From assembly GCF_031760065.1 (NCBI RefSeq), contig NZ_CP134500.1, positions 7,006,001 through 7,070,000 of the forward strand: 64,000 bases of DNA, written 5' to 3'. A program made the translations under genes and the position numbers. Below the pieces are notes generated by a model. That model saw only the letters and a program-made list of their open reading frames with translations. It had not been told where the DNA came from and did no database searches. This document shows, in pieces, positions 20,176-61,532 of the stretch. Position 1 is the stretch's first letter. The number at the start of each line of letters is the position of its first letter. This DNA comes from Streptomyces durocortorensis (GTDB taxonomy: Bacteria; Actinomycetota; Actinomycetes; Streptomycetales; Streptomycetaceae).

Positions 20176-20293
20176 CGGGCGATCGTAGGGACCTGCCGAC
20201 CCGTCAATGCGGCAACCGGGCGGGTCCTTTGCCCCATTTCGTCACTTCTTGTGGGCAGGATGGGGCCATGACGTCCCCGAAGCAGGAGCCAGG

Positions 20294-40973: not shown

Positions 40974-41114
40974 GGGGGACTCCTGATCAGTCGTAGCGGC
41001 TCGGTGATCGGGTCAGTTGCGGGCATGGCGGACCAGGCCCCGGCGGACAGGGGGGCGAGCAGTGCGAAACGGGCAGGGGCGCGGAGACGGGGGCGGCGTG
41101 CGCAGCCGTACGGG

Positions 41115-41876: not shown

Positions 41877-42116
41877 GGCGCACTTCCCTGATCGCTGCTG
41901 GGCCCGGTCGGGCGGAGCCCGCTGTCCGTTCGGGCTCATGTGTCGTTTCTACAAGCACTTCCCCTGCTTCGACCAGCCGCTCCACCGAATCCCCTGGGCC
42001 CGTTCGTGTCCGTTTCCCCGGGTACGCCGGTGCTGGTCACGCCCACGGCGACCGCAGGTCCGGCAGCCCGGCGTGCCCGCTTCCCGCCGACCGGCGCCCG
42101 AATCCTGACCGAAGGC

Positions 42117-43292: not shown

Positions 43293-43807
43293 CCCCAGCG
43301 CGAACCCAGCGCGGAACGCAGCGGATCGAGGGACGGGTCCTCGCAGCCGCGCGCCGTGGTGTGGTCGATGACGACGGCCCACTCCTGGATGATGGTCGCG
43401 ACCAGCTCCGCCTCGCGTTCGTAGTCCTCGGAGTAGGAGGTGCGGTGGAGCCTCCGGGTGATCAGACCGCGGGGGTGATCGGTGCCGCTCATCCCCAGAA
43501 CCTCCTCCTCCGCGCGTGCGTCGGCCTCGTGATCGGCGAGGATGTGGCCGACCTCATGGAGGATGATGTGGTCCTGGTGTACCCGGGTCGTCTCCTTCTG
43601 GTAAAAAATGTGCTCCTCGTCCGTGCGGGATATCCACACGCCGAAGGGGCCGGGAGCGGGCAGCTCCCAGGGGATCAGCCGGATGGGCTTTCCGCGGTGC
43701 AGGCCGAGCCGGTGGCACAGTTCGTCCACGCGGAGCGGTGGCCGGATGTCGAGTTGGCGCAACAGGCGTTTGCAGTAGCGGCGGAGCTCGCGCTCGCGTA
43801 TGGCCAC
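43283..43807 (-). CDS. ImmA/IrrE-family zinc metallopeptidase
   Basis: 174 residues from a GTG at 43807 with GAGGAAG upstream. The HExxH zinc motif is intact in ILHEVGHILADHE, near residue 80. ImmA peptidases cleave or release cognate XRE repressors, in mobile elements, stress regulators and toxin-antitoxin-like pairs. Here the candidate partner is the HTH protein 11 bases upstream. The longer in-frame reading to 44269 is only the shadow of that HTH gene. Confidence 0.85.
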   Translation of the reverse strand: MAIRERELRRYCKRLLRQLDIRPPLRVDELCHRLGLHRGKPIRLIPWELPAPGPFGVWISRTDEEHIFYQKETTRVHQDHIILHEVGHILADHEADARAEEEVLGMSGTDHPRGLITRRLHRTSYSEDYEREAELVATIIQEWAVVIDHTTARGCEDPSLDPLRSALGSRWGWR

Positions 43808-43818
43808 GAGGTTCTTCC

Positions 43819-44289
43819 TCAGTGCTGGGCGCCGGGGTCGGCGGGGGCGTCCTGATCGAAGGTCTCGATCATCTTGAGCAGCTGTTCCCGCATCGTAGGC
43901 GTCATCGCGCCAGCCCTCATGGCGATCATCCGGACCTGCCGGCTGGCCAACTGCTCGCGGAGCAGGTCGTCTTCGGGGTCCCTGCCCGCCACCAGCGACT
44001 GGATCGTGATCGGAGCGGCCCCCGGCTCGCGGTGGTCGTCGAAGAACTTCACCAGGCCGTCGAGGACGCCCAGCGTCGGGTTCGTGTGCGAGCCGTTGCG
44101 CAGCATCGCGAGGTAGCTCCTCGACAACGTCGCTGGGTGGGACGGATCGGCGGTCACCGCCTTGGCCACCTCGGCCGTCGAATACTCCCGTTGACGCCCA
44201 TGGGCGTCGCGCCATCGCACCATGGCGAACAACGCGTTCAACCGCTCGGCCAACGACTGGCCGCGACACTGGTCCCTACCTGCTGACAA
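43819..44289 (-). CDS. XRE-like HTH regulator of the ImmA/DUF6545 module
   Basis: 156 residues from a TTG at 44289 with GGGAG eight bases upstream. The HTH (YSTAEVAKAVTADPSHPATL then LSRSYLAMLRNGSHTNPT) resembles EspR/XRE proteins of Streptomyces. A C-terminal helical tail (QLASRQVRMIAMRAGAM; MREQLLKMIETFDQD) probably dimerises. It is the likely substrate or partner of the adjacent ImmA peptidase and is divergent from the ParB-like regulator gene. Confidence 0.8.
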   Translation of the reverse strand: MSAGRDQCRGQSLAERLNALFAMVRWRDAHGRQREYSTAEVAKAVTADPSHPATLSRSYLAMLRNGSHTNPTLGVLDGLVKFFDDHREPGAAPITIQSLVAGRDPEDDLLREQLASRQVRMIAMRAGAMTPTMREQLLKMIETFDQDAPADPGAQH

Positions 44290-45591: not shown

Positions 45592-46064
45592 CACCCGAAA
45601 TTAATGTCGCCCGTGCATAGGGGGCGTCGTAAACATGCGGTGGATGAGACGGACTTCACGGCGAGCGGTCTTGAAGAGTGCCGAAGTGACTCGTGTACGT
45701 TGAAGTAATTGTCGGCGTGCTGCTTCCCGGCTTTGTGGTGGTAACGAAGCCCGGTGTGCGTCGCGGGATTACTGAAGGGATGCTGGGATGCCTCATTGCA
45801 TGGCGTGCACAGTTCCGGTAGTTCCTCGGGTCTGCGAGGCTGGGTACACGCGAGGCGGTCCGTCCTCGCGATGTTTGCCGGTTTCCGGCGGCCGGTGAGC
45901 CGCGCACCAGAAGAAGGGCGCCGGCCGGGCCCGCTGTCGTGCCCGCCGGTCCTGTACTTTGCCCGAAGTGCTTCCCTTCCGCGGTGGGCATCGGGAATTC
46001 TCGATGCTGTTGCCCGCGCCCGTGTGCCGACACCTTGGTACGTATCGCCAGTTATGGGGGAAAG
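45592..46064. other. Control region upstream of the LuxR cluster regulator
   Basis: 473 bases, noticeably less GC-rich than the genes around it (e.g. CGAAATTAATGTCGCCC at the start), with no open frame having a ribosome site and gene-like codon use. It presumably carries the promoter and long leader of the LuxR gene. Confidence 0.5.
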
Positions 46065-47468
46065 ATGAATGCGACGGAGTGCGAAAACAATCGGACAGCG
46101 GATGTTTTCGCCGGGCGGCACGCGTGGCGCACAGATCCGGTTGCGCCAGGGTGGCGCAACGCAGCCGTTCACACGGCATGGGAGGGAAGGGGACAGGAGA
46201 GCGCCCCTGCCTTAGCCAGGCCGTCGGCGCCGTCCCGGTCCGCGGTCACCTACACGCCGGGGATCGTGCTCCGTGGTGAGGTCGATGGTATGCGGCCCGA
46301 ATTGCGCGCCGCCGTGCAGAGCATCGGACTGGCCAATCTCGGGGTGGGCCGTGCGGTGGTCACCGAACAGACCGAGTGGGTGCTGGAATCGGACGCGGCC
46401 AGGTCCGAGGCGCACTGCGCCTGGCTGGCGATCCTGGCGCTGCACTACACCGGTGACCTCGTCTCGGCGGACGCGCAGTGCGAGCGGCTCGCCCGTGATC
46501 CCGTGTGGGCCGGGTCGGACCGGCACCAGGAACTGCTGACGCTCCTGAGGGCCCGCAGCAGTCTGATGTCGGGCGATGTGGCGCGGGCCGCGGAGCTGCT
46601 GAAGGCGCTTCTCGCCCGCCGCGCGCCGACGTTGCCCCTCTGCCTCACGGTCGCCTGGCTGATCGAGGCGCTGGTCCACCTGGGCGAGTTCGACCAGGCG
46701 CACCAAGTGCTCCTCGAACACGGGCTGGTCGGCCGGCTCGGCTCCCACCTGCCCGACCGGGTGCACGTGCTGGCGGCCAGGGGCGCCCTGCACATGGCCG
46801 CCGGTCAGTTCCGGCACGCCATCGACGACTACACCGCCTGCGGCCGGATTCTGGCCACGCTCAACGTGGTCAACTCCGCTGTCGTTCCCTGGCGGTCCAG
46901 GGCGGCCCTCGGGGCGCTGGCCGTACAGCGGTACGACCTGGCACTCGCGCTGGCCGAGGACGAGCTGATCGCGGCCCGGAAGTGGGGATCGGCCAGGGGT
47001 GTGGGCACGGCGCTGCACGCGGTGGCCATGGCGCGCCGGGACGGGACGTCCCCGGCCCTGCTGGAGGAGGCCGTCCAGCTGCTCGAACTCGGGCACGCCA
47101 GGTCCGAGCTGATGCAGGCGCTCTACGACCTCGGGATGATGCAGGCCGAACGCAAGGACGTGGTGGGCGGGCGCAGCCGGCTGGAGGAGGTCGACGAGGT
47201 GGCCCACGCGTGCGGCAACGCCTTCTGGGCGCGGCGCGTGAAGCCGGCTCTGGCCCGCCTGAACGACCCCGACGGCAGTCGTGTGCTCACCCGGCAGGAG
47301 AACAAGATCGCCCAGCTGGCCCGGGCCGGATACAGCAACCGGAGGATAGCGGAGACGCTCTTCCTGGCGGTTCGGACGGTTGAATTCCACTTGTCCAGTG
47401 TGTACCGGAAGCTGGATATCTCAGGCCGACAGGAGCTGGTCACCGCCCTGGGGGTCGTGGCCCCTTAG
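46065..47468 (+). CDS. LuxR-type (LAL-like) pathway regulator lacking the ATPase half; has a TTA codon
   Basis: 467 residues from ATG 46065 (GGGGGAAAG upstream). The middle ~300 residues are helical TPR-like repeats (e.g. LSGDVARAAELL-like MSGDVARAAELLKALLARR). The C-terminal LuxR HTH is complete (LTRQENKIAQLARAGYSNRR to RKLDISGRQELVTALGV). It equals the C-terminal half of large LAL regulators; the AAA ATPase half is missing. Leu50 is encoded by TTA (46212-46214), the rare codon read by the bldA tRNA, so translation should wait for development. Probable activator of the downstream angucycline-type cluster. Confidence 0.85.
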   Translation: MNATECENNRTADVFAGRHAWRTDPVAPGWRNAAVHTAWEGRGQESAPALARPSAPSRSAVTYTPGIVLRGEVDGMRPELRAAVQSIGLANLGVGRAVVTEQTEWVLESDAARSEAHCAWLAILALHYTGDLVSADAQCERLARDPVWAGSDRHQELLTLLRARSSLMSGDVARAAELLKALLARRAPTLPLCLTVAWLIEALVHLGEFDQAHQVLLEHGLVGRLGSHLPDRVHVLAARGALHMAAGQFRHAIDDYTACGRILATLNVVNSAVVPWRSRAALGALAVQRYDLALALAEDELIAARKWGSARGVGTALHAVAMARRDGTSPALLEEAVQLLELGHARSELMQALYDLGMMQAERKDVVGGRSRLEEVDEVAHACGNAFWARRVKPALARLNDPDGSRVLTRQENKIAQLARAGYSNRRIAETLFLAVRTVEFHLSSVYRKLDISGRQELVTALGVVAP

Positions 47469-47644: not shown

Positions 47645-47758
47645 CCCCTCGGTTCCCTTGTGTGCCAGTCGGTTCGGATGACAGGCTCGAAATCAATTCA
47701 GCGAGATTCACTCACCGGGCTGCGGCCGCAACCGACGCACACCGAGGCAGGAATTCGC

Positions 47759-48184
47759 ATGCTTCAGCAGAACACGACCAAGCGCATCGGATATTGGCTG
47801 CTGCACTTGCATCAGCTCTTCGACGAAGCCACTCGGCGGGCACTGTCGGAACAGGACCTGAATCGGCGTCAGTGGCAGGTGCTGCACGCGATCAGTATCC
47901 AGGTGAATACCGTCGCCGGAATCGATGAGGCGTTCTCCCCCTTCCTGGCGGTGGACCGGGCGGGGACGTACGGCCCCATCGTGAAGGAGTTCGAGGCCCG
48001 TGGCTGGGTGACAACGGACGGCACGGCCATTTCCCTCACCGAGGACGGGGAGGCGGCGCATACACGGGCCGAGGCCGCGGTGAACGCGCATGCGGCCCAA
48101 TCGCTCGCGGGGATATCCGAGGCCGAGTTCCTCGCCGCCAACGACGTACTGGCGCGCATCGCCCACAACCTTGAGACCGAATAG
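47759..48184 (+). CDS. MarR-family winged-helix regulator
   Basis: 141 residues. MarR layout: dimerisation helix (YWLLHLHQLFDEATRRAL), then RRQWQVLHAISIQ, recognition region around LAVDRAGTYGPIVKEFEARG, wing WVTTDGTAISLTEDGEAA. ATG 47759 has GGCAGGA upstream. It is the gene immediately before the PgaE-like hydroxylase (25 bases), so it is probably co-transcribed with the biosynthetic genes and may sense the product or an intermediate. Confidence 0.85.
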   Translation: MLQQNTTKRIGYWLLHLHQLFDEATRRALSEQDLNRRQWQVLHAISIQVNTVAGIDEAFSPFLAVDRAGTYGPIVKEFEARGWVTTDGTAISLTEDGEAAHTRAEAAVNAHAAQSLAGISEAEFLAANDVLARIAHNLETE

Positions 48185-48209: not shown

Positions 48210-49694
48210 ATGGATGCTTCAGTCATTGTCGTGGGAGCCGGGCCCGCGGGGCTCGCGCTGGCCGGGGAACTGCGTCTCGCCGGTGTCGACGTCATCGTGC
48301 TGGACCGGCTGGCCGCACCGTCCGGAGAGTCGCGCGGCATCGGGTTCACCATCCGGACCATGGAAGTCTTCGACCAGCGGGGACTTCTCTCCCGCTTAGG
48401 GGAGATCGAGACCAGCGAGGCCGGGCACTTCGGCGGCCTGCCCCTCGATCTGGGGGCGCTGGGCGCCGCCCACGCATCCGCGAGGACCGTTCCCCAGTCC
48501 GTGACCGAGGGAGTCCTGGAGCGCTGGGCCCGCGACCTGGGCGCCGACATCAGGCGCGGACACGAGGTCACAGGCCATGTCGAGGACGGCGACGGGGTGA
48601 CCGTCACCGTCTCGGGCGACGGGGCCAATCTGCGCGCCCGCTACCTGGTCGGCTGTGACGGAGGGCGCAGCGGCGTTCGCCGGGCCGCCGGCTTCGACTT
48701 CCCCGGAACTCCCGCCACCACCGAACTCTTCCTCGCCGACATCAAAGGCGCGGATCTGTCGCCCCGCATGGTGATCGACCGGACCGACGACGGCCTGGTC
48801 ATGGTCGCGCAACTGCCGGGCGGCATCCACCGCGTCATCGTGGGCGAGCGAGGCACGACGCCCCCCGAGCGGCGCACCGCACCGCCCGCCTTCAGCGAGG
48901 TCGCCGATGTCTGGAAGCGCCTGACGGGCGGTGACATCTCCGGGGCGGAGCCAGTCTGGGTCAGCGCGTTCACCGACGCCGCCCGGCAGGTCACCGCGTA
49001 CCGGCGCGGCCGGGTGCTGCTGGCCGGGGACGCCGCGCACGTCCATCTGCCCGCCGGTGGGCAGGGGATGAACACCAGCATCCAGGACTCGGTGAACCTC
49101 GGCTGGAAGCTCGCGGCGGTGGTGCGCGGCACCGCCCCCGACACGCTCCTCGACTCCTACCACGACGAACGTCACGAGGTCGGCCGCAGGCTCCTCGCGA
49201 ACACCCGGGCCCAGAGCTCCCTCATCCTCGGCGGCGCCGACGCCGGGCCGGTTCGCGAGATCCTCGGCGAACTCCTCACCCTGCCCGAGGTGGAACGCCA
49301 TCTGGCGGCCCGGGTCAGCGGCCTGGACATCCGCTACGACGTGGGCGGCGGCGCGCACCCCCTGCTCGGGGCCCGCATGCCGCGGCTCCGGCTCGCTCAC
49401 GAGGGCAAGGAGACCAGCAGCGGCGAACTCCTGCGGACGGGGCGCGGGGTGCTGCTGGACCTGGCGGACAACGCCACGCTGCGCGGCCGTGCCCGGGAAT
49501 GGACCGACCGGATCGACGTGGTGACAGCCGTCCCGCACGACCCCACGGCCGACCATCTGCCGGCCGGCACCACCGCACTCCTGCTGCGTCCCGACGGCCA
49601 TGTGGCCTGGGCCGCTCCGGGCTCCCACTCCGACCTGCCGATGGCGCTGGCCCGCTGGTTCGGGCCGGCCCGACGAACACGAGAAGGGGAATGA
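48210..49694 (+). CDS. pgaE: PgaE/JadH/UrdE-like angucycline C-12 flavin hydroxylase; has a TTA codon
   Basis: 494 residues, class A flavoprotein aromatic hydroxylase. FAD motifs: [40 protein letters not shown] and [20 protein letters not shown]. Stretches such as [23 protein letters not shown] and [16 protein letters not shown] [12 protein letters not shown] closely follow my memory of PgaE from the gaudimycin/angucycline pathway. It also has the C-terminal thioredoxin-like domain ([20 protein letters not shown]). It is expected to hydroxylate the tetracyclic intermediate at C-12 to give the quinone. Leu63 is a TTA codon (48396-48398). Its end overlaps the cyclase gene by ATGA. Confidence 0.9.
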
Positions 49695-50017
49695 TGCACA
49701 GCACGCTGATCGTGGCCAGGATGGCATCCGGCTCGGCCGAGGAAGTCGCCGAACTCTTCGGAGCCTTCGACCGTACGGATGTTCCCGGCCGCATGGGCAC
49801 CCGCCGCCGCCGGCTCTTCGAGTTCCGCGGCCTCTACTTCCACCTCCAGGACTTCGACGAGGACAACGGCGAGGACCTGATCGAGGAGGCCAAGACCGAC
49901 CCCCGCTTCGTCCGCATCAGCCAGGACCTGAAGCCGCACATCCAGGCGTACGACCCCGCCACCTGGCGGTCGCCCAAGGACGCCATGGCCCGACGCTTCT
50001 ACGACTGGAGGGCCTGA
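49691..50017 (+). CDS. pgaF: TcmI-family polyketide cyclase (PgaF/LanF-like)
   Basis: 108 residues, the usual size. Family marks: [40 protein letters not shown] and an ending [12 protein letters not shown]. In angucycline clusters (pgaF, lanF, urdF, jadI) this protein closes the fourth ring and sets the bent tetracycle. It is coupled on both sides: ATGA with the hydroxylase and TGATG with KS-alpha. ATG 49694 is an alternative start. Confidence 0.92.
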
Positions 50018-51297
50018 TGAGCGGGGTGTACGGACGCCGGGTCGTGATCACCGGGATCGGAGTCACCGCCCCCGGCGGAAAGAGCCCCAAGGAGTTCTGG
50101 AAGCTTCTCACCGACGGACGTACGGCCACCCGCCGTATCTCCTTCTTCGACCCCTCGCCGTTCCGCTCGCAGATCGCCGCCGAGGTCGACTTCGACGCCG
50201 AACTCTCCGGACTCGGCCCGCAGGAGATCCGCAGGATGGACCGGGCCGCCCAGTTCGCGGTGGTCACCGCCCGCGACGCGGTCGCCGACAGCGGACTGGA
50301 GTTCGCCGCCCTCGTCCCGCAGCGGACCGGGGTGACGATCGGCAGCGCGGTCGGCGCGACCACCGGCCTGGACCAGGAGTACCGCACGGTCAGCGACGGC
50401 GGCCGACTGGAACTGGTGGACCACGCCTACGCGGTCCCGCATCTGTACAACCACATGGTCCCCAGCTCCTTCGCGACCGAGGTCGCGTGGGCGGTGGGCG
50501 CGGAGGGGCCGAGCACGGTGGTGTCCACCGGCTGCACCTCCGGTCTGGACGCGGTGGGGTACGCCGCGGACGTCATCAGGGAAGGCTCGGCCGATGTGAT
50601 GATCGCGGGCGCGACCGACGCGCCCATCTCGCCGATCACCGTGGCCTGCTTCGACGCGATCAAGGCCACCACGCCCCGCAACGACGACCCCGAGCACGCC
50701 TCACGGCCCTTCGACGCCAGCCGCAACGGCTTCGTCATGGGTGAGGGATCGGCCGTGTTCGTCCTGGAGGAACTGGACAGCGCCCGTGCCCGCGGGGCGC
50801 GGATCTACGCCGAGGTCGCCGGATTCGCGACACGCTCGAACGCGTTCCACATGACCGGACTCCGCCCCGACGGCGCCGAGATGGCCGAGGCCATCAGGGT
50901 CGCCCTGGACGAGGCCCGGCTCAACCCCGAGGACATCGACTACATCAACGCCCACGGTTCCGGGACCAAGCAGAACGACCGGCACGAGACGGCGGCGTTC
51001 AAGCGCAGCCTGGGGGAGCACGCGCACCGGACCCCGGTCAGCTCCATCAAGTCGATGGTCGGCCACTCGCTCGGCGCCATCGGCTCGATCGAGATCGCGG
51101 CGTCCGTCCTCGCCATGACCCACGACGTGGTGCCACCGACGGCGAATCTCCACAACCCCGACCCGGAGTGCGACCTGGACTACGTGCCGCTGACCGCACG
51201 CGACTGGAAGACCGACAGCGTGCTCTCCGTGGGCAGCGGCTTCGGCGGATTCCAGAGCGCGATGGTGCTGGCCAAGCCCGAGCGGGGCGCCCGATGA
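50017..51297 (+). CDS. pgaA: Type II PKS ketosynthase alpha (PgaA-like)
   Basis: 426 residues, full length. Active-site Cys173 in [16 protein letters not shown]; the two His are in [16 protein letters not shown] and [12 protein letters not shown]. With the KS-beta it condenses one starter and extender malonyl units; a decaketide is expected for angucyclines. [20 protein letters not shown] is typical of KS-alpha. Translation coupled to KS-beta (ATGA overlap). Confidence 0.97.
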
Positions 51298-52547
51298 GCG
51301 CGCGTGCACTGGTCACCGGGCTCGGGATCGTCGCGCCGACCGGACTCGGCATCGAGGACTACTGGTCGGCCACCCTCGCGGGCCGCAGCGCGATCGGACG
51401 GGTGACGCACTTCGACCCCACGCCCTACCCGTCCCGGCTGGCGGGCCAGGTCAGCGGGTTCGACGCCGCGGAGCACCTGCCCAGCCGGCTCCTGCCGCAG
51501 ACCGACCGGATGACCCGGCTCGCCCTGGTCGGCGCCGACTGGGCGTTCGAGGACGCCGGTGTGGTCCCCGCCGATCTGCCCACGTACGACATCGGAGTGA
51601 TCACCGCGAGCCACTCCGGGGGCTTCGAGTTCGGCCAGAACGAGCTGCGGGCGCTGTGGAGCAAGGGCGGCCAGTACGTCAGCGCGTACCAGTCCTTCGC
51701 CTGGTTCTACGCGGTCAACAGCGGGCAGATCTCCATCCGCAGCGGCCTCCGCGGCCCCAGCAGCGTCGTGGTCAGTGACCAGGCGGGAGGGCTCGACGCG
51801 GTCGCCCAGGCCCGCCGGCAGATCCGCAAGGGGACCAGCATGGTCATCTCGGGCGCGGTCGACGCGTCGATCTGCCCCTGGGGGTGGGTCGCCCAGATGG
51901 CCGGAGGCCGCCTCAGCACCTCCGACGACCCGGAGCGGGCCTACCTCCCCTTCGACGACCGGGCCGCCGGGCACGTACCGGGTGAGGGCGGCGCGCTGCT
52001 GGTCGTCGAGGACGCCGGACACGCGAAGCGGCGTGCGGCGCCCCGGGTGTACGGCGAGATCGCCGGGCACGCGTCGACGGTGGACCCCAGGCCCGGCAGC
52101 GACCGTGCGCCCACCCTGCAGAACGCCATCCAACTCGCCCTGGCCGACGCGGACATGGTCGCCGACGACATCGGCGTCGTGTTCGCCGACGCCGCGGGCC
52201 TGCCGGACCTGGACCGGGCCGAGGCCGAGGCGATCACCAAGGTCTTCGGGCCCCGCGGGGTGCCGGTGACCGCGCCCAAGACCACGACAGGACGGCTGTA
52301 CTCCGGCGCCGCCCCTCTGGACCTCGCCGCCGCGTTCCTCTCGATGCGCGACCAGGTCGTGCCGCCGACGGCCGCCTCCACCCCGGCCAGGTCCTACGAG
52401 ATCGACCTCGTGACCGGCGCCCCCCGTCCCGCCGAACTGCGCAGCGCGCTCGTGCTCGCCCGCGGTCACGGCGGCTTCAACTCGGCGATGGTCGTGCGCG
52501 GAGCCGACCACGCCGCTCTGCGACCCGTAGGGAAGGACATCCCATGA
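51294..52547 (+). CDS. pgaB: Type II PKS chain-length factor / ketosynthase beta (PgaB-like)
   Basis: 417 residues, KS fold but the nucleophile is Gln163 ([13 protein letters not shown]), the mark of a chain-length factor that decarboxylates malonyl-ACP to start the chain. Ends overlap KS-alpha and ACP genes by four bases each, so the minimal PKS is made in step. Chain length cannot be read safely by eye; pathway context says 20 carbons. Confidence 0.96.
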
Positions 52548-52813
52548 CCACCAGTGAATTCACCCTCCAGGCACTCAGGACCACGCTCCTGGAAGGCGCC
52601 GGAACCGACGAGAACGTGGATCTGAACGGCGACATCGCCGACACCACCTTCGAGGACCTCGGCTACGAGTCGCTGGCGATGCTGGAGACCGTCGGCCGCA
52701 TCGAGCGCGAGTACGGCATCGACCTGGACGAGGAGGAGGTCGCCCTGGCGAACACCCCCCGCGCACTCATCCGCCTCGTCAACGACCGGCTGTCCGCCGC
52801 CCAGTCCGCCTGA
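52544..52813 (+). CDS. pgaC: Acyl carrier protein of the minimal type II PKS (PgaC-like)
   Basis: 89 residues. The phosphopantetheine attachment Ser43 is in EDLGYESLAMLETVGRIE. Acidic four-helix carrier; it overlaps the KS-beta gene by ATGA. No phosphopantetheinyl transferase gene is in the window. Confidence 0.96.
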   Translation: MTTSEFTLQALRTTLLEGAGTDENVDLNGDIADTTFEDLGYESLAMLETVGRIEREYGIDLDEEEVALANTPRALIRLVNDRLSAAQSA

Positions 52814-52825
52814 TCGGAGACCCTG

Positions 52826-53611
52826 ATGACCGACAACACGGCCAAAGTCGCGCTGGTCACCGGCGCCACCAGCGGAATCGGCCTGGCTTCCGCCCGGCTC
52901 CTCGCCGAGCAGGGACACCGGGTGTTCCTCTGCGCCAGGGACGCGAGCGCGGTCGCCGAGACCGTCAAAGCCCTGCAGAACGAGAACCTCGACGTGGACG
53001 GCGCGGCCGCCGACGTCCGCTCCAAGGACGACATCGAGGCCGTCGTACGGGCGGCGGTGGCCCGGTTCGGGCCGATCGACGTCCTGGTCAACAACGCGGG
53101 CCGCAGCGGGGGAGGGGTCACCGCGGACATCGCCGACGACCTGTGGGACGACGTCATCGCCACCAACCTCACCAGTGTGTTCCAGGTGACCCGGGAAGTC
53201 CTCAACACCGGTGGCATGCGCGAGAAGAAGCGCGGCCGCATCATCAGCATCGCCTCCACGGCGGGCAAGCAGGGCGTGGTGCTCGGCGCCCCGTACTCCG
53301 CCTCGAAGCACGGGGTGGTCGGATTCACCAAGGCGCTGGGCAACGAGCTGGCGCCGACCGGGATCACCGTCAACGCGGTGTGCCCCGGCTACGTCGAGAC
53401 GCCGATGGCGCAGCGTGTGCGGCAGGGGTACGCGGCCGCCTACGAGACGTCCGAGGACGCGATCCTGGAGAAGTTCCGGGCGAAGATCCCCCTGGGCCGG
53501 TACTCCACCCCGCAGGAGGTCGCCGGACTCGTCGGCTACCTCGCCTCCGACCCGGCGGCCTCCATCACCGCGCAGGCGCTGAACGTCTGCGGAGGTCTGG
53601 GCAACTTCTGA
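52826..53611 (+). CDS. pgaD: C-9 polyketide ketoreductase (PgaD/ActIII-like)
   Basis: 261 residues. SDR motifs: TGATSGIG, NNAGRSGGG, catalytic Ser in ISIASTAGK, and YSASK. PGYVETPMA and a 261-residue length match ActIII-type ketoreductases, which reduce the C-9 carbonyl and fix the first-ring folding. It starts 12 bases after the ACP stop, with GGAG upstream. Confidence 0.95.
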   Translation: MTDNTAKVALVTGATSGIGLASARLLAEQGHRVFLCARDASAVAETVKALQNENLDVDGAAADVRSKDDIEAVVRAAVARFGPIDVLVNNAGRSGGGVTADIADDLWDDVIATNLTSVFQVTREVLNTGGMREKKRGRIISIASTAGKQGVVLGAPYSASKHGVVGFTKALGNELAPTGITVNAVCPGYVETPMAQRVRQGYAAAYETSEDAILEKFRAKIPLGRYSTPQEVAGLVGYLASDPAASITAQALNVCGGLGNF

Positions 53612-53673
53612 CGGCCCGCCACACCCCGTGGCGACTTCCCTGCCCACCGGGCACGTCGAGTGAGGAGACAGCT

Positions 53674-54621
53674 GTGTCCGTACAAGCCGGCCGCGAGGTC
53701 GAGCACGAGATCACCGTCCTGGCCGCCGCCGAGGACGTCTACCGACTGCTTGCCGAGGTGGAGAACTGGCCGAGGCTCTTCCCGCCGTCGGTGTACGTCG
53801 ACGTCCTGGAGCGTGAGGGAAACCTGGAGCGGATACGTATCTGGGCCACCGCGAACGGCGAGGCCAAGAACTGGACCTCGATCCGGGACCTCGATCCGGA
53901 CGGGCTGCGCATCACGTTCCGGCAGGAGATCTCCGCCCCGCCCGTGGCGTCGATGAGCGGCACCTGGATCGTGGAGCCGCTGGGGGAGGAGGAATCCCGG
54001 CTCCGGCTGCTACACGAGTACCGCGCGATCGACGACGACCCCGAAGGCCTCGCCTGGATCGACGAGGCCGTCGACCGCAACAGCCGCGCCGAACTCCCCT
54101 CGGTCAAGGCCGGACTCGAAGAAGCCACCCGGACCGACGAGCTGACGCTGTCCTTCGTGGACAGCGTCACGGTCGAAGGCTCCGCGAAGGACCTCTTCGA
54201 CTTCGTCAACGAGGCCGACCGCTGGACCGAGCGGCTGCCGCACGTCAACGACGTCAAGCTCACCGAGGAGACCCCCGGCCTCCAAGTCCTGCGGATGGAG
54301 ACCCTCACCAAGGACGGCTCGGCACACACGACCGAGTCGGTACGGGTCTGCTTCCCGCACCACCGCATCGCCTACAAGCAGACCACGCTGCCCGCCCTGA
54401 TGAACCTCCACACCGGGTACTGGCTCTTCGAGGAGGCCCCCGACGGCACCACCACCGCGAGCTCGCAGCACACGGTGGTCCTCAACGCCGCGAACATCAC
54501 CAAGATCCTCGGAGCGGACGCGGGCGTCCCCGAAGCCAGGGAGTTCATCCGCAACGCCCTCGGCAACAACAGCCGCGCCACGCTGGAGCACGCCAGGAAG
54601 TACGCGGAAGCGCGGCGCTGA
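53674..54621 (+). CDS. pgaL: Didomain aromatase/cyclase (PgaL/ActVII-like)
   Basis: 315 residues from a GTG at 53674 with GAGGAG upstream. Two START-like halves: residues ~1-150 (REVEHEITVLAAAEDVYRLL; NWPRLFPPSVYVDVLE) and ~160-315 (LSFVDSVTVEGSAKDLFDFV; ADRWTERLPHVNDV). These enzymes aromatise the first ring in reducing systems such as actinorhodin and angucyclines. It precedes the PgaM-like gene by three bases. Confidence 0.93.
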   Translation: MSVQAGREVEHEITVLAAAEDVYRLLAEVENWPRLFPPSVYVDVLEREGNLERIRIWATANGEAKNWTSIRDLDPDGLRITFRQEISAPPVASMSGTWIVEPLGEEESRLRLLHEYRAIDDDPEGLAWIDEAVDRNSRAELPSVKAGLEEATRTDELTLSFVDSVTVEGSAKDLFDFVNEADRWTERLPHVNDVKLTEETPGLQVLRMETLTKDGSAHTTESVRVCFPHHRIAYKQTTLPALMNLHTGYWLFEEAPDGTTTASSQHTVVLNAANITKILGADAGVPEAREFIRNALGNNSRATLEHARKYAEARR

Positions 54622-54624
54622 CCG

Positions 54625-56655
54625 ATGCCCGTGCAAACACCCCGGAGCACGGTGGACACCGACGTGGTCGTGGTCGGCGCCGGGCCGGTCGGGCTGCTCC
54701 TCGCCGGAGACCTGCGCGCCCATGGGGTGCGGGTCACCGTGGTGGAGCAGCTGACCACGCCGATGACCGAATCACGCGCGTCCACCCTGCACGCCCGCAC
54801 GATGGAGACGCTCGCCGAACGCGGCGTCCTCGACCGGCTCGGCCCGCTCCCGGACGGCGGCCCGGGGCACTTCGGCGGCATCCGGCTCGACTTGGCCGAG
54901 GCCGAGCCGGGCCATCCGTACGCGGGACAGTGGAAGTGTCCCCAGACCAGGATGGAGGCGGTGCTCCAGGAGCGGGCCGTCGAGCTGGGGGCGCGGATAC
55001 TGCGAGGGCGACAGCTCGTCGCCCTGGCGGACCGCGGCGACCGCGTGCTGGTCGCGACCGCCGCGACGGAACCGGCCGGCGGCCCGGCCGAGGAGCTGAC
55101 CGGGTCGTATGTCGTCGGCTGCGACGGCTGGCGGTCCGCCGTACGGGACCTGGCGGGCTTCACGTTCCCCGGCCGGCCGGCGGGCCGCGAGATGCTGCGG
55201 GCCGACGTCGCCGGAATCCGTGTCCCCGACCGGCGGTTCGAGCGCCTGCCCGACGGACTGGCCACCGCCCACCGCTGGCCGGACGGCAGCACCCGGGTCA
55301 TGGTGCACGTCTTCGGCACGGAGCCCCGGCGCCACGCCGGGGAGCCGGAGTTCGACGAGATCGTGCGGGCCTGGGCGCACGTCACCGGTGAGGACATCGG
55401 CCACGGGACCCCCCGGTGGCTGAACGCCTTCGACGACACCCGACGCCAGGCCGCCCGCTACCGCCGGGGCCGGGTCCTGCTCGCCGGAGACGCCGCCCAC
55501 GTACAGATGCCGGTCGGCGGGCAGGCCCTCAACCTCGGCCTCCAGGACGCCGCTGCGCTCGGCGCACGGCTCGCCGAGCAGCTCAGGGCCCCGACGGGCG
55601 GCGGCCCCGGGGCCGACGGGGACGCCCTGGACGCGTACCACCGTGAGCGCCACCCCGTGGGGGCCGCCACGCTCACCAACATCCAGGCGCAGTCGACGCT
55701 GCTGCTCGGCGGGCACGAGGTGGAGCCGCTGCGCGAGCTCTTCGCCGAGCTCATGCGCCTCGGGCCGGTACGCCGACGGCTCGCCCGCATGATCAGCGGC
55801 CTCGGCGCGCCGCCTACCGCCCGCGCGGGGGCCGACGGGCTCCCCGCTTTTCCTTCCCGGACGACTTCACAGGACAGGACTCCCACGATGGCCAAGCTCA
55901 CGAACAAGACCGCGCTGGTGACCGGCTCCAGCCGGGGAATCGGCCGCGCCACCGCCCAGCGGCTGGCCGCCGAGGGCGCACTCGTCGCGGTGCACTACGC
56001 GTCCAACGACGACGCGGCGCGCGAAACCGTCGAACTGATCGAGAAGGACGGGGGACGGGCCTTCACGGTCCGGGCCGAACTCGGTGTCCCCGGAGACGTG
56101 CACGAACTCTTCCTCGGCCTGGAGCGCGGCCTCAAGGAGCGCACCGGCGCCACGACCCTCGACATCGTGGTCAACAACGCGGCGGTGACCACCCCCGCCG
56201 GGGTGCTGCCGGAGGATGTCACGCCCGAGGAGTTCGAGCGTCTCTTCGCGGTGAACGCCAAGGCCCCGTTCTTCATCGTGCAGCGCGCTCTCGCCCTGCT
56301 CCGCGATGGCGGCCGCATCATCAACATCTCCTCCGGCCTCACCCGCTGCGCCAACCCGGACCAGGTCGCGTACTCCATGACCAAGGGCGCGGTCGAGCAG
56401 ATCACCCTGCACTTCGCGCGCCACCTGGCGCCGCGCGGCATCACCGTCAACAGCGTGGCGCCCGGCATCACCAACAACGGCGGCCCGGTCTTCGACATCC
56501 CCGAGGCCGTGGAGCAGATGGCCCAGCTGTCGGCGTTCAAACGTGTCGGCGAGGCCGTGGACGTCGCGGACGTGGTGACCTTCCTCGCCACCCACGAGGC
56601 CCGGTGGATCACCGGAGCCTTCATCGACGCAAGCGGTGGCACCCTGCTGGGCTGA
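54625..56655 (+). CDS. pgaM: PgaM/UrdM-like oxygenase-reductase fusion with candidate internal start
   Basis: 676 residues, two enzymes in one frame. Residues ~1-405 are a flavin monooxygenase ([58 protein letters not shown]) without the C-terminal thioredoxin-like domain. Residues ~422-676 are an SDR (LVTGSSRGIGRATAQRL; NNAAVTT; ISSGLTRC; YSMTKG). In the pga pathway this fusion acts with the C-12 hydroxylase and its SDR half reduces at C-6. PgaM is known to give a separate reductase from an internal start. Here ATG 55888 (residue 422) is preceded by AGGACAGGA and falls exactly before the SDR domain, so the same may happen. Confidence 0.92.
   Translation: MPVQTPRSTVDTDVVVVGAGPVGLLLAGDLRAHGVRVTVVEQLTTPMTESRASTLHARTMETLAERGVLDRLGPLPDGGPGHFGGIRLDLAEAEPGHPYAGQWKCPQTRMEAVLQERAVELGARILRGRQLVALADRGDRVLVATAATEPAGGPAEELTGSYVVGCDGWRSAVRDLAGFTFPGRPAGREMLRADVAGIRVPDRRFERLPDGLATAHRWPDGSTRVMVHVFGTEPRRHAGEPEFDEIVRAWAHVTGEDIGHGTPRWLNAFDDTRRQAARYRRGRVLLAGDAAHVQMPVGGQALNLGLQDAAALGARLAEQLRAPTGGGPGADGDALDAYHRERHPVGAATLTNIQAQSTLLLGGHEVEPLRELFAELMRLGPVRRRLARMISGLGAPPTARAGADGLPAFPSRTTSQDRTPTMAKLTNKTALVTGSSRGIGRATAQRLAAEGALVAVHYASNDDAARETVELIEKDGGRAFTVRAELGVPGDVHELFLGLERGLKERTGATTLDIVVNNAAVTTPAGVLPEDVTPEEFERLFAVNAKAPFFIVQRALALLRDGGRIINISSGLTRCANPDQVAYSMTKGAVEQITLHFARHLAPRGITVNSVAPGITNNGGPVFDIPEAVEQMAQLSAFKRVGEAVDVADVVTFLATHEARWITGAFIDASGGTLLG
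55872..55890 (+). promoter_or_regulatory. Internal ribosome site and start for a free reductase domain
   Basis: AGGACAGGA ends 7-8 bases before ATG 55888, in the linker between oxygenase and SDR domains. It would allow a 255-residue free reductase from the same message, as reported for PgaM-type genes. Confidence 0.6.
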
Positions 56656-56688: not shown

Positions 56689-58260
56689 GTGACGACCGTA
56701 CAAGCAACGCCGAGCATCGCTGAACACCTCGGTGAACTCATCGAGTTGAAGAAGGCCGCCCGGGTCGGACCCGATCCCGCGGCAACGGAGCGCCAGCACG
56801 CCAAGGGCAAGCTCACCGCGTACGAACGCATCGATCTCCTGCTGGATCCGGGCAGCTTCACCGAGGTCGAGCCACTGCGGCGGCACCGGGCCACGGGATT
56901 CGGTCTTGAGGCCAAACGGCCGCACTCCGACGGTGTGGTCACCGGCTGGGGAACCGTCGAGGGACGCACCGTATTCGTGTACGCGCACGACTTCCGGATC
57001 TTCGGGGGCGCGCTGGGAGAGGCGCACGCACAGAAGATCCAGAAGATCATGGACATGGCCATCGCTTCGGGCGGTCCGCTGGTGTCCCTGAACGACGGCG
57101 CGGGCGCCCGTATCCAGGAAGGCGTCTCGGCACTGGCCGGATACGGCGGCATCTTCCAGCGCAACACCCGGGCATCCGGGGTCATCCCGCAGATCAGCGT
57201 GATGCTCGGCCCCTGCGCGGGGGGAGCCGCCTACTCCCCGGCGCTGACCGACTTCGTCTTCGCGGTCCGCGGGATAGCGCAGATGTTCATCACCGGCCCC
57301 GACGTGGTCCGCACGGTCACCGGGGAGGAGGTCTCACAGGACGGGCTGGGCGGGGCCGACGTGCACGGCTCCACGTCGGGCGTCGCGCACTTCGTCCACG
57401 ACGACGAGGAGACCTGCCTGGCCGAGGTGCGCTGGCTCCTGTCGCTGCTGCCCGCCAACAACCGTGAACTGCCGCCCGCCGTCGTCACCGGCGATCCGGC
57501 GGACCGCAGGGTGGACCGCCTCCTCGAACTGGTCCCGGCCGACGGCAACCGCTCCTACGACATCCGCGACGTCATCGCCGAACTCGTCGACGACGAGGAG
57601 TACATGGAGGTCCACGCCCAGTGGGGTACCAATCTGGTCTGCGCACTGGCCCGGCTCGACGGCCGGGTCGTCGGCGTGGTCGGGAGCCAGCCCGCCGCCC
57701 TGGCCGGTGTCCTGGACATCACCGCGAGCGAGAAGGGCGCCAGATTCGTCCAGTTCTGCGACGCCTTCAACATCCCCCTCCTGACGCTCGTGGACGTGCC
57801 GGGCTTCCTGCCCGGCGTGGACCAGGAGCACGGTGGCATCATCCGGCGCGGCGCCAAGCTGCTGTACGCCTACTGCAACGCCACCGTGCCGCGGATCTCC
57901 GTGGTGCTCCGCAAGGCGTACGGCGGTGCGTACATCGTGATGGACTCGCGCTCCATCGGCACGGACCTCGCCCTGGCCTGGCCCACCAACGAGATCGCGG
58001 TGATGGGTGCGGAAGCAGCCGCGGACGTGGTCTTCCGGCGCGAGATCGCCGCCTCCGACGACCCGGCGACCACCCGCGAGCAGAAGATCAAGGAATACCG
58101 GCGGGAGCTCGTACACCCCTACTACGCGGCCGAACGCGGCCTGGTCGACGATGTGATCGACCCGGGCGACACGCGGGCCGTCCTCATCCGATCCTTCGCG
58201 ATGCTCCAGCGCAAGGACGCCGACCTGCCGCGCCGCAAGCACGGCAACCCGCCCCAGTGA
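56689..58260 (+). CDS. Acyl-CoA carboxylase beta subunit (malonyl-CoA supply)
   Basis: 523 residues from a GTG at 56689 with AGGAGGA upstream. Carboxyltransferase marks: NDGAGARIQEGVSALAGYG, GPCAGGAAYSPALTDF and LRKAYGGAYIVMDSRSIG. Transfers a carboxyl group from biotin to acetyl- or propionyl-CoA; beside an aromatic PKS the use is probably malonyl-CoA for chain extension. No biotin-carboxylase/carrier alpha subunit is encoded in the window, so a general one must serve. The epsilon subunit gene overlaps its end by GTGA. Confidence 0.92.
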   Translation: MTTVQATPSIAEHLGELIELKKAARVGPDPAATERQHAKGKLTAYERIDLLLDPGSFTEVEPLRRHRATGFGLEAKRPHSDGVVTGWGTVEGRTVFVYAHDFRIFGGALGEAHAQKIQKIMDMAIASGGPLVSLNDGAGARIQEGVSALAGYGGIFQRNTRASGVIPQISVMLGPCAGGAAYSPALTDFVFAVRGIAQMFITGPDVVRTVTGEEVSQDGLGGADVHGSTSGVAHFVHDDEETCLAEVRWLLSLLPANNRELPPAVVTGDPADRRVDRLLELVPADGNRSYDIRDVIAELVDDEEYMEVHAQWGTNLVCALARLDGRVVGVVGSQPAALAGVLDITASEKGARFVQFCDAFNIPLLTLVDVPGFLPGVDQEHGGIIRRGAKLLYAYCNATVPRISVVLRKAYGGAYIVMDSRSIGTDLALAWPTNEIAVMGAEAAADVVFRREIAASDDPATTREQKIKEYRRELVHPYYAAERGLVDDVIDPGDTRAVLIRSFAMLQRKDADLPRRKHGNPPQ

Positions 58261-58507: not shown

Positions 58508-59491
58508 ATGGACATGGGACTCCTCTTCGACCTGCGCAACCCGGACGCCTGGCACCGGCCGTGGGCCGACCACTACGCGCACGCGCTGGAGCTCTGTGAG
58601 GAAGCGGACCGGCGAGGCGTCGGCGGTCTCTGGTTCACCGAGCACCACCTCTTCGAGGACGGCTATCTGCCGCAGCCGCTGGTGTTCGCCGCGGCCGCCG
58701 CCGCCCGTACCCGCGACTGCCGCATCGGAACCGCGGTCGTGCTCCCCAACCTGCGCAGGCCCGCACAACTCGCCGAGGACGCCGCGGTCGTCGACCTGAT
58801 CAGCGGCGGCCGGCTGGAGCTTGGCGTCGGGGCCGGATACCGGGTGCCCGAATACCAGCTGTTCGACGCCGAGTTCGAGGGCCGCATCGGGCGGGTCGAG
58901 AAGAACATCGCCGAGGTCCGGCGCCTGTGGGCCGAGGGCGGCATCACCCCCGGGCCGATCCAGCGCCCGGTACCCGTGTGGGGCGGCTTCTACGGGCCGC
59001 GCGGCGCACGGATCGCGGGCCGCCTCGGCATCGGTCTGCTCCATATCAACCACGCCATGTACGAGCACTACCGTACGGGCCTGGAGGAGGGCGGCCACGA
59101 CCCGTCCATAGCCCGGGTCTCCGACCTGCTGCCGGTGATCCTGGCCGACGACCCCGAGGCCGCCTGGCCCCGGATCGCCCCGCACCTGGTCCATCAGATG
59201 AACTCCTACCGCACCGGGTCCGTGGAAGGCACCGATCACCCCGCTCCGCCGCTGCTGAAGGCGGAGGACTTCCCCGAGAAGCGCGCCGACGACGGGTCCT
59301 GGTCGACCCTGGAGGTCCTCACCCCCGAAGAAGCAGCGGTACGCATCCACGAGCGCACCGAGGGACTCCCGGTCAAGCACCTCATCTTCTGGGCGAGCAT
59401 CGCGGGGATGCCCGACGACCTGGTGACCCGGCACATCGAACTGGTCAGTGAACGACTGCCGAAGCTGCTCGCCGAGGTGCGGGGCCGGTGA
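58508..59491 (+). CDS. Luciferase-like (LLM) flavin-dependent oxidoreductase
   Basis: 327 residues, TIM-barrel bacterial-luciferase fold. Opening MGLLFDLRNP, FTEHHLFEDGYLPQPL with the usual His pair, RIGTAVVLPNLRRPAQLAED and GRLELGVGAGYRVPEYQLF. Members use FMNH2 with oxygen, or F420, to oxidise or reduce. No flavin reductase partner lies next to it. It is not part of the standard angucycline core and may do a late oxidation or ring opening; this is inference from position. ATG 58508 has GGAG nine bases upstream; ATG 58490 is possible. Confidence 0.85.
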   Translation: MDMGLLFDLRNPDAWHRPWADHYAHALELCEEADRRGVGGLWFTEHHLFEDGYLPQPLVFAAAAAARTRDCRIGTAVVLPNLRRPAQLAEDAAVVDLISGGRLELGVGAGYRVPEYQLFDAEFEGRIGRVEKNIAEVRRLWAEGGITPGPIQRPVPVWGGFYGPRGARIAGRLGIGLLHINHAMYEHYRTGLEEGGHDPSIARVSDLLPVILADDPEAAWPRIAPHLVHQMNSYRTGSVEGTDHPAPPLLKAEDFPEKRADDGSWSTLEVLTPEEAAVRIHERTEGLPVKHLIFWASIAGMPDDLVTRHIELVSERLPKLLAEVRGR

Positions 59492-60687
59492 GCGGTAGGA
59501 CCGCCACCGAGGCGGCCGCGGGACGGGCGGGCATACGGCAGCACCGGCCGCTGCTCGTCGTCCTGTCGGGGAACATGCTCCTCGATGCGGTCGAGGTCTC
59601 CGTGGTCCTGGTGGCCCTGCCGACGATCGCCGCCGACCTGGGACTGACCCTGTGGTCGGTGCAGTGGCTGATGAGCGGCTTCGCCCTCGGCTTCGCCGCG
59701 ATGCTGCTCCTGGGGCCCGTGCTCTCGGGCCGGTGGGGGCTGCGCCGCGTCTACCTCGCCGCGATGCTGGTCTTCGCGCTCGCCTCCCTCGTCGGCGGTC
59801 TCGGCGACAGTACGGAGCTGCTGATCGCCTCACGTGTCGTCAAGGGGGCGTGCGCGGCGCTGACCGCTCCGGCCGGGCTCGCGCTCATCGGCAGGACCTT
59901 CCCGGGTGGACCGGCGCAGCGCCGGGCGGTGTCGGTCTACTCGTTGTTCGGTGCGGCCGGGTTCACCGCGGGTCTGCTGCTCTCCGGGGCTCTGGTCGCC
60001 GCCGACTGGCGCTGGACGTTCCTGCTCCCGGCCCCGGTGGCCCTGGTGCTCCTGGTGTGGGGGCTGAAGGTGATCCCCGGCTCCGCCCGGCAGGCCTCAC
60101 GCCGACCGGTCGCGGCGGTCCTGCGGAACGGGCCTTTGGTTAGGGCGACCCTGGGCGCCTCCGCCCTCAACGGCTCCTACATCGGACTGCTTCTGCTCGT
60201 GACGTTCCGGGCCGGGGACGGCTGGGGCTGGGAGCCCTGGCAGATCGCGCTGGCCCTGCTGCCCGCGAGCGTTCCACTGGCCCTTTCGGTGCCGTACGCG
60301 GGGCTTCTGGTCCACCGATTCGGCACGGCACGACTGATCGCCGCAGGCGCGCTGTGCGCCCTCGCCGGACAGCTCTACGCTCTGCTGAGCCCGGAGCCCC
60401 ACACGTACGCGACCGGGCTGCTGCCCGCGCTGATCCTGGTGGAGGCCGCGTTCGTGCTCTCCTTCGCGGCCCTGAACCTCCAGGCGACGCAGAGCGTGGA
60501 ACCCGCGCTGCGGTCCACGGCCGTGCCGGTCTACCAGACCGGGGTACAGATCGGCAGCGTCCTCATGCTGCCGCTGGTCGCCGGGCTCGCCACCGTCACC
60601 GACGGCTACCGGGCACCGCTGCTGGCGACGGCGCTGACCGCCGCCCTGGGGGTGGGGACGGCGGCCGGGGGGCTGCGCGGGAGGTGA
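59488..60687 (+). CDS. MFS transporter, cluster-associated
   Basis: 399 residues from a GTG overlapping the luciferase-like gene's stop by GTGA. About 12 membrane segments; MFS marks include VSVVLVALPTIAADLGLTLW, SGRWGLRRVYLAAM and a motif-C-like FGAAGFTAGLLLSG. The coupling to a tailoring gene suggests export of the product or an intermediate. It differs clearly from the 14-helix exporter at 62161, so the cluster has two exporters. Confidence 0.85.
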   Translation: MSGRTATEAAAGRAGIRQHRPLLVVLSGNMLLDAVEVSVVLVALPTIAADLGLTLWSVQWLMSGFALGFAAMLLLGPVLSGRWGLRRVYLAAMLVFALASLVGGLGDSTELLIASRVVKGACAALTAPAGLALIGRTFPGGPAQRRAVSVYSLFGAAGFTAGLLLSGALVAADWRWTFLLPAPVALVLLVWGLKVIPGSARQASRRPVAAVLRNGPLVRATLGASALNGSYIGLLLLVTFRAGDGWGWEPWQIALALLPASVPLALSVPYAGLLVHRFGTARLIAAGALCALAGQLYALLSPEPHTYATGLLPALILVEAAFVLSFAALNLQATQSVEPALRSTAVPVYQTGVQIGSVLMLPLVAGLATVTDGYRAPLLATALTAALGVGTAAGGLRGR

Positions 60688-60707: not shown

Positions 60708-61532
60708 TCAGCGTGCGAGCAGTTCCCGGGTGAGGGCGTCGAGCCGCAGCGCCTCCTGCTGGTCGAAGGACGGGAGTCGTGTGCTGAGCCGTCGGCCCTC
60801 GAAGAAGGCGCTCAGGGGCTCGGCCGGCGGGGCGTCGATGGCCGCGACGATCGGCGCGATGCCCACCTCCACCGGATTCGCGTACCGCAGCATCTCCTGG
60901 ATGCGGGCAGCGGTGGCCGGATCGAACTCGCCGGCGAACCCGGTCGCCGTACCGCCGGGGAAGTTGAGGACGTACCGGGTGCGGTAGCCGCGGTGTTCGG
61001 CGGCGAACGAGGCGCCGAGGAGGTCATTGAGCTTTCCGCCCTGGAACATCGCCGCCCAGCCGTCGTAGCCGTGCTCGAAACCGAGGTCGTTCCAGTGGAT
61101 CCCGCCCGCGTCGACGCCCGGGCCCGCCACGTTCATGATGACCGGCGAGGGCGCCTTCTCCAGGAGGCCGACCAGTCCGTACCCGAGCAGGAAGCGGCTC
61201 AGGTAGTACAGCGCGAAGTTGTGTTCGAACCCTTCGGATGTCACACGCCGGTACGAACGGAAGAACCGCGCGCACAGCACCAGCGCGTCCACGACAGGAA
61301 AGCGCTCCTCGATCTCCTGGACGACACGCTCGTTCTCGCTGACGAGACTCAGGTCCGCCCGGATGAAGAAGGCCCGCTCCTCGGCGCCCAGGTCGGCCGC
61401 GGCGGCGAGGAAACTCTTCCCCTTGTCCGGGTTGGGGCCGATGACGGCGACGCGGTCCCCGCGCTTCAGATAGGTGTGGGCGAGGGCCTCCCCGATTCCG
61501 GAGGTGCCGCCTGAAACAACCATGGTTTTCAT
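60708..61532 (-). CDS. Degenerate short-chain dehydrogenase lacking the catalytic Tyr
   Basis: 274 residues from ATG 61532 with GGGAGAA upstream. The cofactor motif VVSGGTSGIGEALAHTYLK is intact. At the catalytic centre the family YxxxK reads F163-Q-G-G-K167 (AMFQGGKLNDLL), and the expected Ser is Ala/Gly (VIMNVAGPGVD). So Tyr and Ser are missing while Lys stays. Other SDRs without the Tyr, such as SimC7 of simocyclinone biosynthesis, still reduce ketones by a different mechanism; alternatively the protein may be non-redox. It is divergent from the SnoaL-like gene with a 45-base gap. Confidence 0.8.
   Translation of the reverse strand: MKTMVVSGGTSGIGEALAHTYLKRGDRVAVIGPNPDKGKSFLAAAADLGAEERAFFIRADLSLVSENERVVQEIEERFPVVDALVLCARFFRSYRRVTSEGFEHNFALYYLSRFLLGYGLVGLLEKAPSPVIMNVAGPGVDAGGIHWNDLGFEHGYDGWAAMFQGGKLNDLLGASFAAEHRGYRTRYVLNFPGGTATGFAGEFDPATAARIQEMLRYANPVEVGIAPIVAAIDAPPAEPLSAFFEGRRLSTRLPSFDQQEALRLDALTRELLAR

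Follow-up and report, generated by a model that had tools for sequence, protein, structure and literature searches.

Angucyclines form one of the largest groups of aromatic polyketides, and the urd, lan and pga clusters combine a gene order of the E-F-A-B-C-D-L-M type and a PgaE/PgaM pair with sugar genes. Here, we describe a type II polyketide synthase (PKS) locus from a 64-kb stretch of Streptomyces durocortorensis DNA (contig NZ_CP134500.1, positions 7,006,001 to 7,070,000; hereafter the window, whose numbering is used for coordinates), which very probably is a complete, compact cluster for a non-glycosylated angucyclinone. As an initial annotation of the same sequence had pointed out, it resembles pga, lan and urd in gene order and in its PgaE/PgaM-like pair; the likeness does not extend to deoxysugar and glycosyltransferase genes, none of which was recognised among the genes called nearby (the proteins of these three clusters were compared by Protein Data Bank (PDB) chains).

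Two other described clusters lend themselves to comparison. The rub cluster of Streptomyces sp. CB02414, which directs the synthesis of rubiginones, has the order RubD1 (489 aa), RubE (108 aa), RubF1 (424 aa), RubF2 (406 aa), RubF3 (85 aa), RubG (261 aa), RubH (361 aa), RubI1 (678 aa), RubB2 (256 aa), RubJ (522 aa), RubK (71 aa), RubD2 (322 aa) and RubL (414 aa) (PMC8487521). The window shares with it the core order followed by a JadN-like gene, an oxygenase gene of about 322 codons and a transporter gene, but it has no counterpart of the small extra genes RubB2 and RubK at those places. Furthermore, rub contains, among others, two P450 genes, methyltransferase genes and an ABM gene (PMC8487521), whereas neither the window nor the 39 kb that follow it (the right flank, composed of the segments L009, which has its own coordinate scale, and L010) yielded homologues of P450, O-methyltransferase and ABM genes. 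With the order M, JadN-like gene, luciferase-like flavin enzyme (LLM) and MFS exporter, the window may carry a cassette of the rub/hrb type, RubD2 and HrbH being matched to LLM by length and place.

In the lugdunomycin (lug) cluster of Streptomyces sp. QL37, oxidation at C-12 depends on LugOI and reduction at C-6 on LugOII, while cleavage of the C-ring requires LugOIII and LugOV (PMC10728087). LugOI is PgaE-like and LugOII PgaM-like, as are their equivalents in the window, and the QL37 genome has a relative, with 62% identity, of the SDR encoded at 60708-61532. In contrast, ABM-type enzymes and an O-methyltransferase (compare LugN) were not found in the window by homology to genes of its relatives.

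The eight genes of the PKS core, announced by the initial annotation at 48210-56655 in the order E-F-A-B-C-D-L-M, lie on one strand and are supported by both open frames and Pfam domains, and the catalytic residues that it listed for the ketosynthase (KS-alpha), chain length factor (CLF), acyl carrier protein (ACP) and ketoreductase are all in place (Table 1). Each of the eight proteins has a Pfam match, with best E-values between 5.3e-10 (ACP) and 7.6e-88, which excludes chance matches. Among the best 25 NCBIfam matches listed for each protein, no equivalog model reached its cut-off; two broad subfamily models did, one of beta-ketoacyl synthases for A and one of FabG for D. The genes were said to be mostly translationally coupled, which is a fair description, as four of the seven junctions overlap (E/F and A/B and B/C by 4 nt, F/A by 1 nt). 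The others are short gaps of 3 nt (L/M), 12 nt (C/D) and about 62 nt (D/L), the last counted from the proposed GTG start of L at 53674 (the query used in the BexL search started 6 nt upstream). The reductase domain of M carries a YSMTK motif (Tyr583), and an in-frame ATG at 55888, preceded by AGGACAGGA, could allow a free reductase product to be made from within M.

Comparison with solved proteins places this core among angucycline pathways. Protein E scores best with PgaE (708 bits), followed by 4x4j (702 bits; presumably BexE), CabE (625 bits), FlsO1 (523 bits) and 6j0z (503 bits), the next oxygenase falling to 369 bits; L matches BexL with 450 bits and StfQ with 169 bits. The reductase part of M (residues 422-676) is closest to 6ypz (430-433 bits), 4osp (398-399 bits) and 4kwh (366-368 bits), which we take to be LugOII, UrdM and LanV, respectively. 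Among solved structures, E is thus closest to PgaE, L to BexL and the M reductase to angucycline C-6 ketoreductase domains. For KS-alpha and CLF, the sole close solved relatives are the actinorhodin pair. The CLF residues aligned with actinorhodin F109/T112/F116, which we assume to be the gate positions, are F/G/L; since roomier tunnels go with longer chains, these residues suggest a tunnel such as longer chains would need.

Trees of the ketosynthase lead to the same assignment. In a 45-row KS-alpha tree, the window and 18 other sequences form a 19-row angucycline clade (98/97), inside which the window belongs to a 10-row subclade (100/99) of clusters with a PgaM-type fusion. All nine other rows of the subclade have E, F, L and both parts of M nearby, and genes resembling PgaE, PgaM or an aromatase occur in the stretches covered for 15 of the 18 other rows of the larger clade. 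In three loci of about 4 kb within this clade (L089, L090 and L092), just F and CLF were seen, with M-like matches a few kb away in the genomes of the first two (G015 and G001, respectively); L091, also in the clade, shows E, F, CLF and an oxygenase-like match. Outside the clade lie type II KSs of related genomes (62-77% identity) and one outgroup at 40%. A 35-row KS tree likewise puts the window and the locus of Streptomyces sp. WZ.A104 (L011) inside a 7-row group (99/97); a separate 13-row group (100/100) contains S. neyagawaensis, for which the title of a paper mentions the ovmZ/ovmW regulators and angucyclinones (PMC11264864).

The initial annotation had named placement with a non-angucycline family as the outcome that would count against its assignment. 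What was found is a KS-alpha inside the 98/97 clade and oxygenases that score best with angucycline enzymes, together with an intact KS-alpha/CLF/ACP set, a BexL-type aromatase with a PF04673 cyclase (presumably of the TcmI type) and a PgaE/PgaM-like pair. The angucycline assignment is thus upheld, and a non-angucycline origin was rejected on the best matches of E and L and on the 45-row tree.

The gene unit runs well beyond 56655, the end of the core. The whole array from the LuxR-type regulator gene to the SDR2 gene (Table 1) recurs in Streptomyces sp. WZ.A104 (97-100% identity) and in a stretch from another Streptomyces congener (G112; 69-92% protein identity). The LuxR-type regulator occupies the same place in both (99% and 69%, respectively), and the MarR-like regulator (97% and 69%), the SnoaL-like protein (100% and 75%) and MFS exporter 2 (99% and 83%) are kept, as are TetR and SDR2.

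Distribution was examined in two samples, 392 evenly drawn genomes of the genus and 42 loci from named genomes, 33 of which were rescanned with more queries; five genome stretches were also fetched (G112, G165, G168, G187 and G192, the last apparently from the same genome as L023). A match to M at E 1e-150 or better occurs in 18 of the 392 genomes, including that of the window. In 15 of the 42 loci (L011-L017, L021-L026, L041 and L042), the LLM gene lies between M and MFS1, whether or not a JadN-like gene is there too, and MFS1 follows it in all 15. These loci end at most about 10 kb from M, so that absences in relatives are provisional; with this proviso, ABM1-like genes were found in six of the 15 (L015, L016, L025, L026, L041 and L042), ABM2-like genes in three (L015, L016 and L017), the SDR in two (L011 and L016) and a SnoaL-like gene in four (L011, L013, L023 and L024). 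The combination of SDR, SnoaL-like protein, MFS2, TetR and SDR2 was seen solely in the window, WZ.A104 and G112. S. rectiverticillatus has close relatives of LLM and of the SDR (P0003 and P0124), encoded on contigs of equal length, and may hold this combination too. The PKS core with JadN-like, LLM and MFS genes was also observed in Nocardia, Rhodococcus rhodnii and Frankia (L012, L013, L015, L021, L022 and L017), the four Nocardia loci additionally carrying acyltransferase and biotin carboxylase genes. On plasmids, M had matches with at most 62.5% identity among the 20 listed. At least one KS-alpha match at E 1e-120 or better is present in 25 of 30 genomes of relatives. The genome of the window contains no further KS above 40% identity to KS-alpha, and hence no KS-alpha of the spore-pigment type was seen.

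By analogy with the characterised systems, KS-alpha, CLF and ACP would build a decaketide, D would reduce it at C-9, and L and F would fold and aromatise the chain to a benz[a]anthracene of the UWM6/prejadomycin type. Protein E would then oxidise C-12, as PgaE and LugOI do, and M, as PgaM and LugOII, would dehydrate C-2/C-3 with its oxygenase part and reduce C-6 with its reductase part. The JadN-like protein may serve in malonyl-CoA supply or in decarboxylation, pathway-specific changes would be introduced by LLM, the tyrosine-less SDR, the SnoaL-like protein and SDR2, and the two MFS pumps would export the product under the control of the LuxR-, MarR- and TetR-like regulators. The cluster is apparently intact and its product probably sugar-free; our guess is a tetracyclic, C-6-reduced angucyclinone with a quinone ring altered by LLM and the SDR and without C-ring cleavage.

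The initial annotation had foreseen a UWM6/rabelomycin-derived angucycline or a rearranged relative of it. The first part stands, and the second has become less likely, since no ABM-type cleavage genes were found nearby. Eight genes of relatives were used as tblastn queries (ABM1, ABM2, FMN reductase, acyl-CoA-dehydrogenase-like, biotin carboxylase, acyltransferase, O-methyltransferase and P450), and none had a match at E 0.01 in the window and its right flank; ABM1 and ABM2 had none at E 1e-8 in the parts of L011 and G112 that were compared. As ABM-type enzymes were found neither in the window nor in the 39 kb to its right, an unrearranged angucyclinone is the most likely product. A C-ring-cleaved or rearranged angucyclinone of the lugdunomycin type would require that LLM or the SnoaL-like protein replace LugOIII/LugOV or that ABM enzymes be encoded elsewhere. 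Two ABM-type genes do lie beside a similar core in L015, L016, L018, L019 and L020, and the lug producer QL37 has the SDR relative mentioned above (P0186; its location within that genome was not seen). However, the missing ABM1 and ABM2 matches, on which lug-type C-ring cleavage was rejected, make such a product unlikely here; an ABM-like match elsewhere in the genome, with 35% identity at 1.33 Mb, is a possible source of the activity, yet a distant one. The window is not alone in lacking ABM genes, because G112, G165 and G192 have no ABM match either, whereas G187 has ABM1 and ABM2 and G168 has ABM1. The ABM1 of relatives scores below the Pfam ABM cut-off, and we infer that ABM1 and ABM2 correspond to LugOIII and LugOV, in one order or the other.

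A glycosylated angucycline of the pga/lan/urd type, with sugar genes elsewhere in the genome, is less probable still. Indeed, E closely resembles PgaE and M closely resembles 4osp (presumably UrdM), but no sugar or glycosyltransferase gene was recognised by eye among the genes called between 35 kb in the window and the far end of L010, about 38 kb to the right of the cluster, nor by Pfam among the other window genes put through it (no search for them covered the remaining genome), and the conserved arrays of WZ.A104 and G112 have no sugar genes between LuxR and SDR2. This glycosylated subtype was therefore rejected. That the cluster is silent or decaying is very unlikely given open frames, intact residues and an array conserved in G112 at 69-92% protein identity.

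Several points weigh against the reading as a complete cluster for a non-glycosylated angucyclinone. The catalytic steps, the product and the expression of the cluster are all predicted from sequence, no specific reaction is ascribed to the four tailoring genes, and the KS-tree rows outside the angucycline clade are not individually identified by product. The absence of ABM genes was judged with two ABM-type proteins of relatives and not with LugOIII and LugOV themselves, and the distant ABM-like match as well as two FMN reductases (56% and 46% identity) are encoded elsewhere in the genome. Finally, LLM is taken to be orthologous to RubD2/HrbH by its length and its place.

The model of LLM has a predicted local distance difference test (pLDDT) score of 91.8, and its Foldseek matches include FMN enzymes (luciferases, RslO1 and the monooxygenase 2i7g) and F420 enzymes; because folds of both kinds match, the cofactor may be either a flavin or F420. 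Its best sequence match among solved proteins, RslO1 (7bip; fifth among the folds), shares about 24% identity, a family resemblance alone. RslO1 is a luciferase-like monooxygenase acting late in rishirilide biosynthesis, with the flavin reductase RslO2 assigned as supplier (PMC7221717). A search of the window and its right flank (tblastn, E 0.01) revealed no homologue of a flavin reductase close to LLM, the two FMN reductase homologues of the genome being those located elsewhere. The consulted passages of PMC9260717 mention neither luciferase nor LLM.

The core is of a common, well-studied kind. A few unusual tailoring genes lie beside it, and the SDR is the one uncommon part of the cluster, which in other respects adds one more ordinary member to a crowded family. 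Residues were counted over the best 120 of its 425 homologues. None has Tyr at the catalytic position (F 48, M 33, G 11, A 8, L 7, T 4, S 3, R 3, V 2 and E 1) or in the ten columns around the Lys position. The presumed Ser column contains A in 98, S in 17, C in 4 and G in 1, and the Lys column K in 59, R in 48, T in 7, P in 2 and others in four. The nearest folds to its model (pLDDT 93.9) are light-dependent protochlorophyllide oxidoreductases (LPOR) and classical SDRs, with template modelling (TM) scores by query length of 0.55-0.81 among the best 50 folds listed.

A described parallel is SimC7, an angucyclinone 7-ketoreductase that lacks the triad Tyr and uses the C-8 phenol of its substrate (PMC5039031). 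Like the SDR of the window, it belongs to an angucyclinone pathway; it is, however, an extended SDR with Ser-Ile-His (PMC5039031), whereas the model of the window SDR is nearest to LPOR and classical SDRs, its family having mostly Ala at the Ser position and Lys in 59 of 120. The SDR was rejected as a SimC7 homologue, as SimC7 is absent from its 36 sequence matches and from the best 50 folds listed. By analogy, this SDR family might have given up the catalytic Ser and Tyr and might reduce a quinone carbonyl of the angucyclinone that has a peri-hydroxyl group beside it, at C-7 or C-12, with the proton of the substrate's own phenol, as SimC7 does, on an LPOR-like scaffold. This proposal is tentative and, on balance, doubtful: Lys is kept in half of the homologues and Ser in 17 of 120, which speaks against it, and the genome contexts of the homologues are mostly unseen. 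Some members of the family may not be reductases at all. If the proposal is right, substrate-assisted catalysis would have a second, independent origin in the same chemistry, and the SDR, LLM and the SnoaL-like protein together would mark out a compact angucyclinone pathway in which the quinone ring is modified in a new way. The core with its four unassigned tailoring genes offers a convenient setting for learning the roles of the widely conserved LLM and of the tyrosine-less SDR, free of background from sugars, P450s and methylations. No product or description of the cluster turned up in the full text of open papers, which is not a claim that it is unpublished.

Table 1. Genes of the core and of the surrounding array (Pfam was run on part of the called genes, the remainder being judged by eye)
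Feature	Position	Strand	Evidence
LuxR-type regulator, TPR-like middle	46056-47468 (start approximate; open reading frame opens 45939)	+	PF00196 GerE E 3.6e-14
Small winged-helix MarR-like regulator	47654-48184 (start approximate)	+	HTH_67 E 0.00053, below cut-off
E: PgaE-like FAD monooxygenase	48210-49694	+	FAD_binding_3 + Rng_hyd_C; PgaE 2qa1 E 7.8e-212
F: polyketide cyclase	49691-50017	+	Cyclase_polyket PF04673 E 2.3e-41
A: ketosynthase KS-alpha, Cys173	50017-51297	+	Pfam KS; actinorhodin KS 1tqy_A E 2.1e-192; trees
B: CLF, Gln163	51294-52547	+	1tqy_B E 5.4e-154
C: ACP, 89 aa, Ser43	52544-52813	+	PP-binding PF00550 E 5.3e-10
D: polyketide ketoreductase, YSASK (Tyr157)	52826-53611	+	adh_short PF00106 E 2.2e-66
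L: BexL-like di-domain aromatase/cyclase	53674-54621	+	two Polyketide_cyc2 stretches; BexL 4xrw E 4.8e-134
M: PgaM/UrdM-like oxygenase-reductase fusion	54625-56655	+	FAD_binding_3 + SDR; 6ypz, 4osp, 4kwh
JadN-like acyl-CoA carboxylase/decarboxylase beta subunit	56689-58260	+	PF01039 E 2.1e-193
LLM: luciferase-like flavin enzyme	58514-59491 (start could be 58508)	+	PF00296 E 4.1e-45
MFS exporter 1	59488-60687	+	PF07690 E 1.4e-39
SDR without catalytic Ser and Tyr	60708-61532	-	PF00106 E 2.9e-14
SnoaL-like protein, divergent from SDR	61578-62087	+	PF13577 E 6.4e-15
MFS exporter 2	62161-63618	-	PF07690 E 7.2e-59
TetR regulator, start	63796-64000, past window edge (L009:796-1374)	+	PF00440 E 4.9e-14
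SDR2	L009:1562-2257, beyond window		PF13561 E 4.1e-38

Among the genes around the core, the name MarR-like is our own reading of a weak Pfam match, and the name JadN-like was chosen because of the position of the gene and its correspondence to RubJ, the protein matching the NCBIfam mmdA model below its cut-off. To the right of the window, a second luciferase-like gene (L009:2259-3080) lies beside a gene of the erythromycin esterase family, the two spanning L009:2259-4427; they were excluded from the unit because they occur in L011 but were not seen in the G112 stretch. Xanthine-dehydrogenase-type genes follow farther right. The stretch 42117-44269 (minus strand), upstream of the cluster, encodes a DUF6545 protein and a neighbour without Pfam match; judged by eye, G112 has a similar pair in its upstream region. 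A sugar ABC (ATP-binding cassette) transporter set occupies 36795-41939 (minus strand), with a solute-binding protein, two permeases, a zinc alcohol dehydrogenase and a DeoR regulator. Finally, a type III PKS-like gene with chalcone/stilbene synthase domains (20207-21346) and an MFS gene 1.7 kb downstream (23059-24678) possibly form another small biosynthetic locus.

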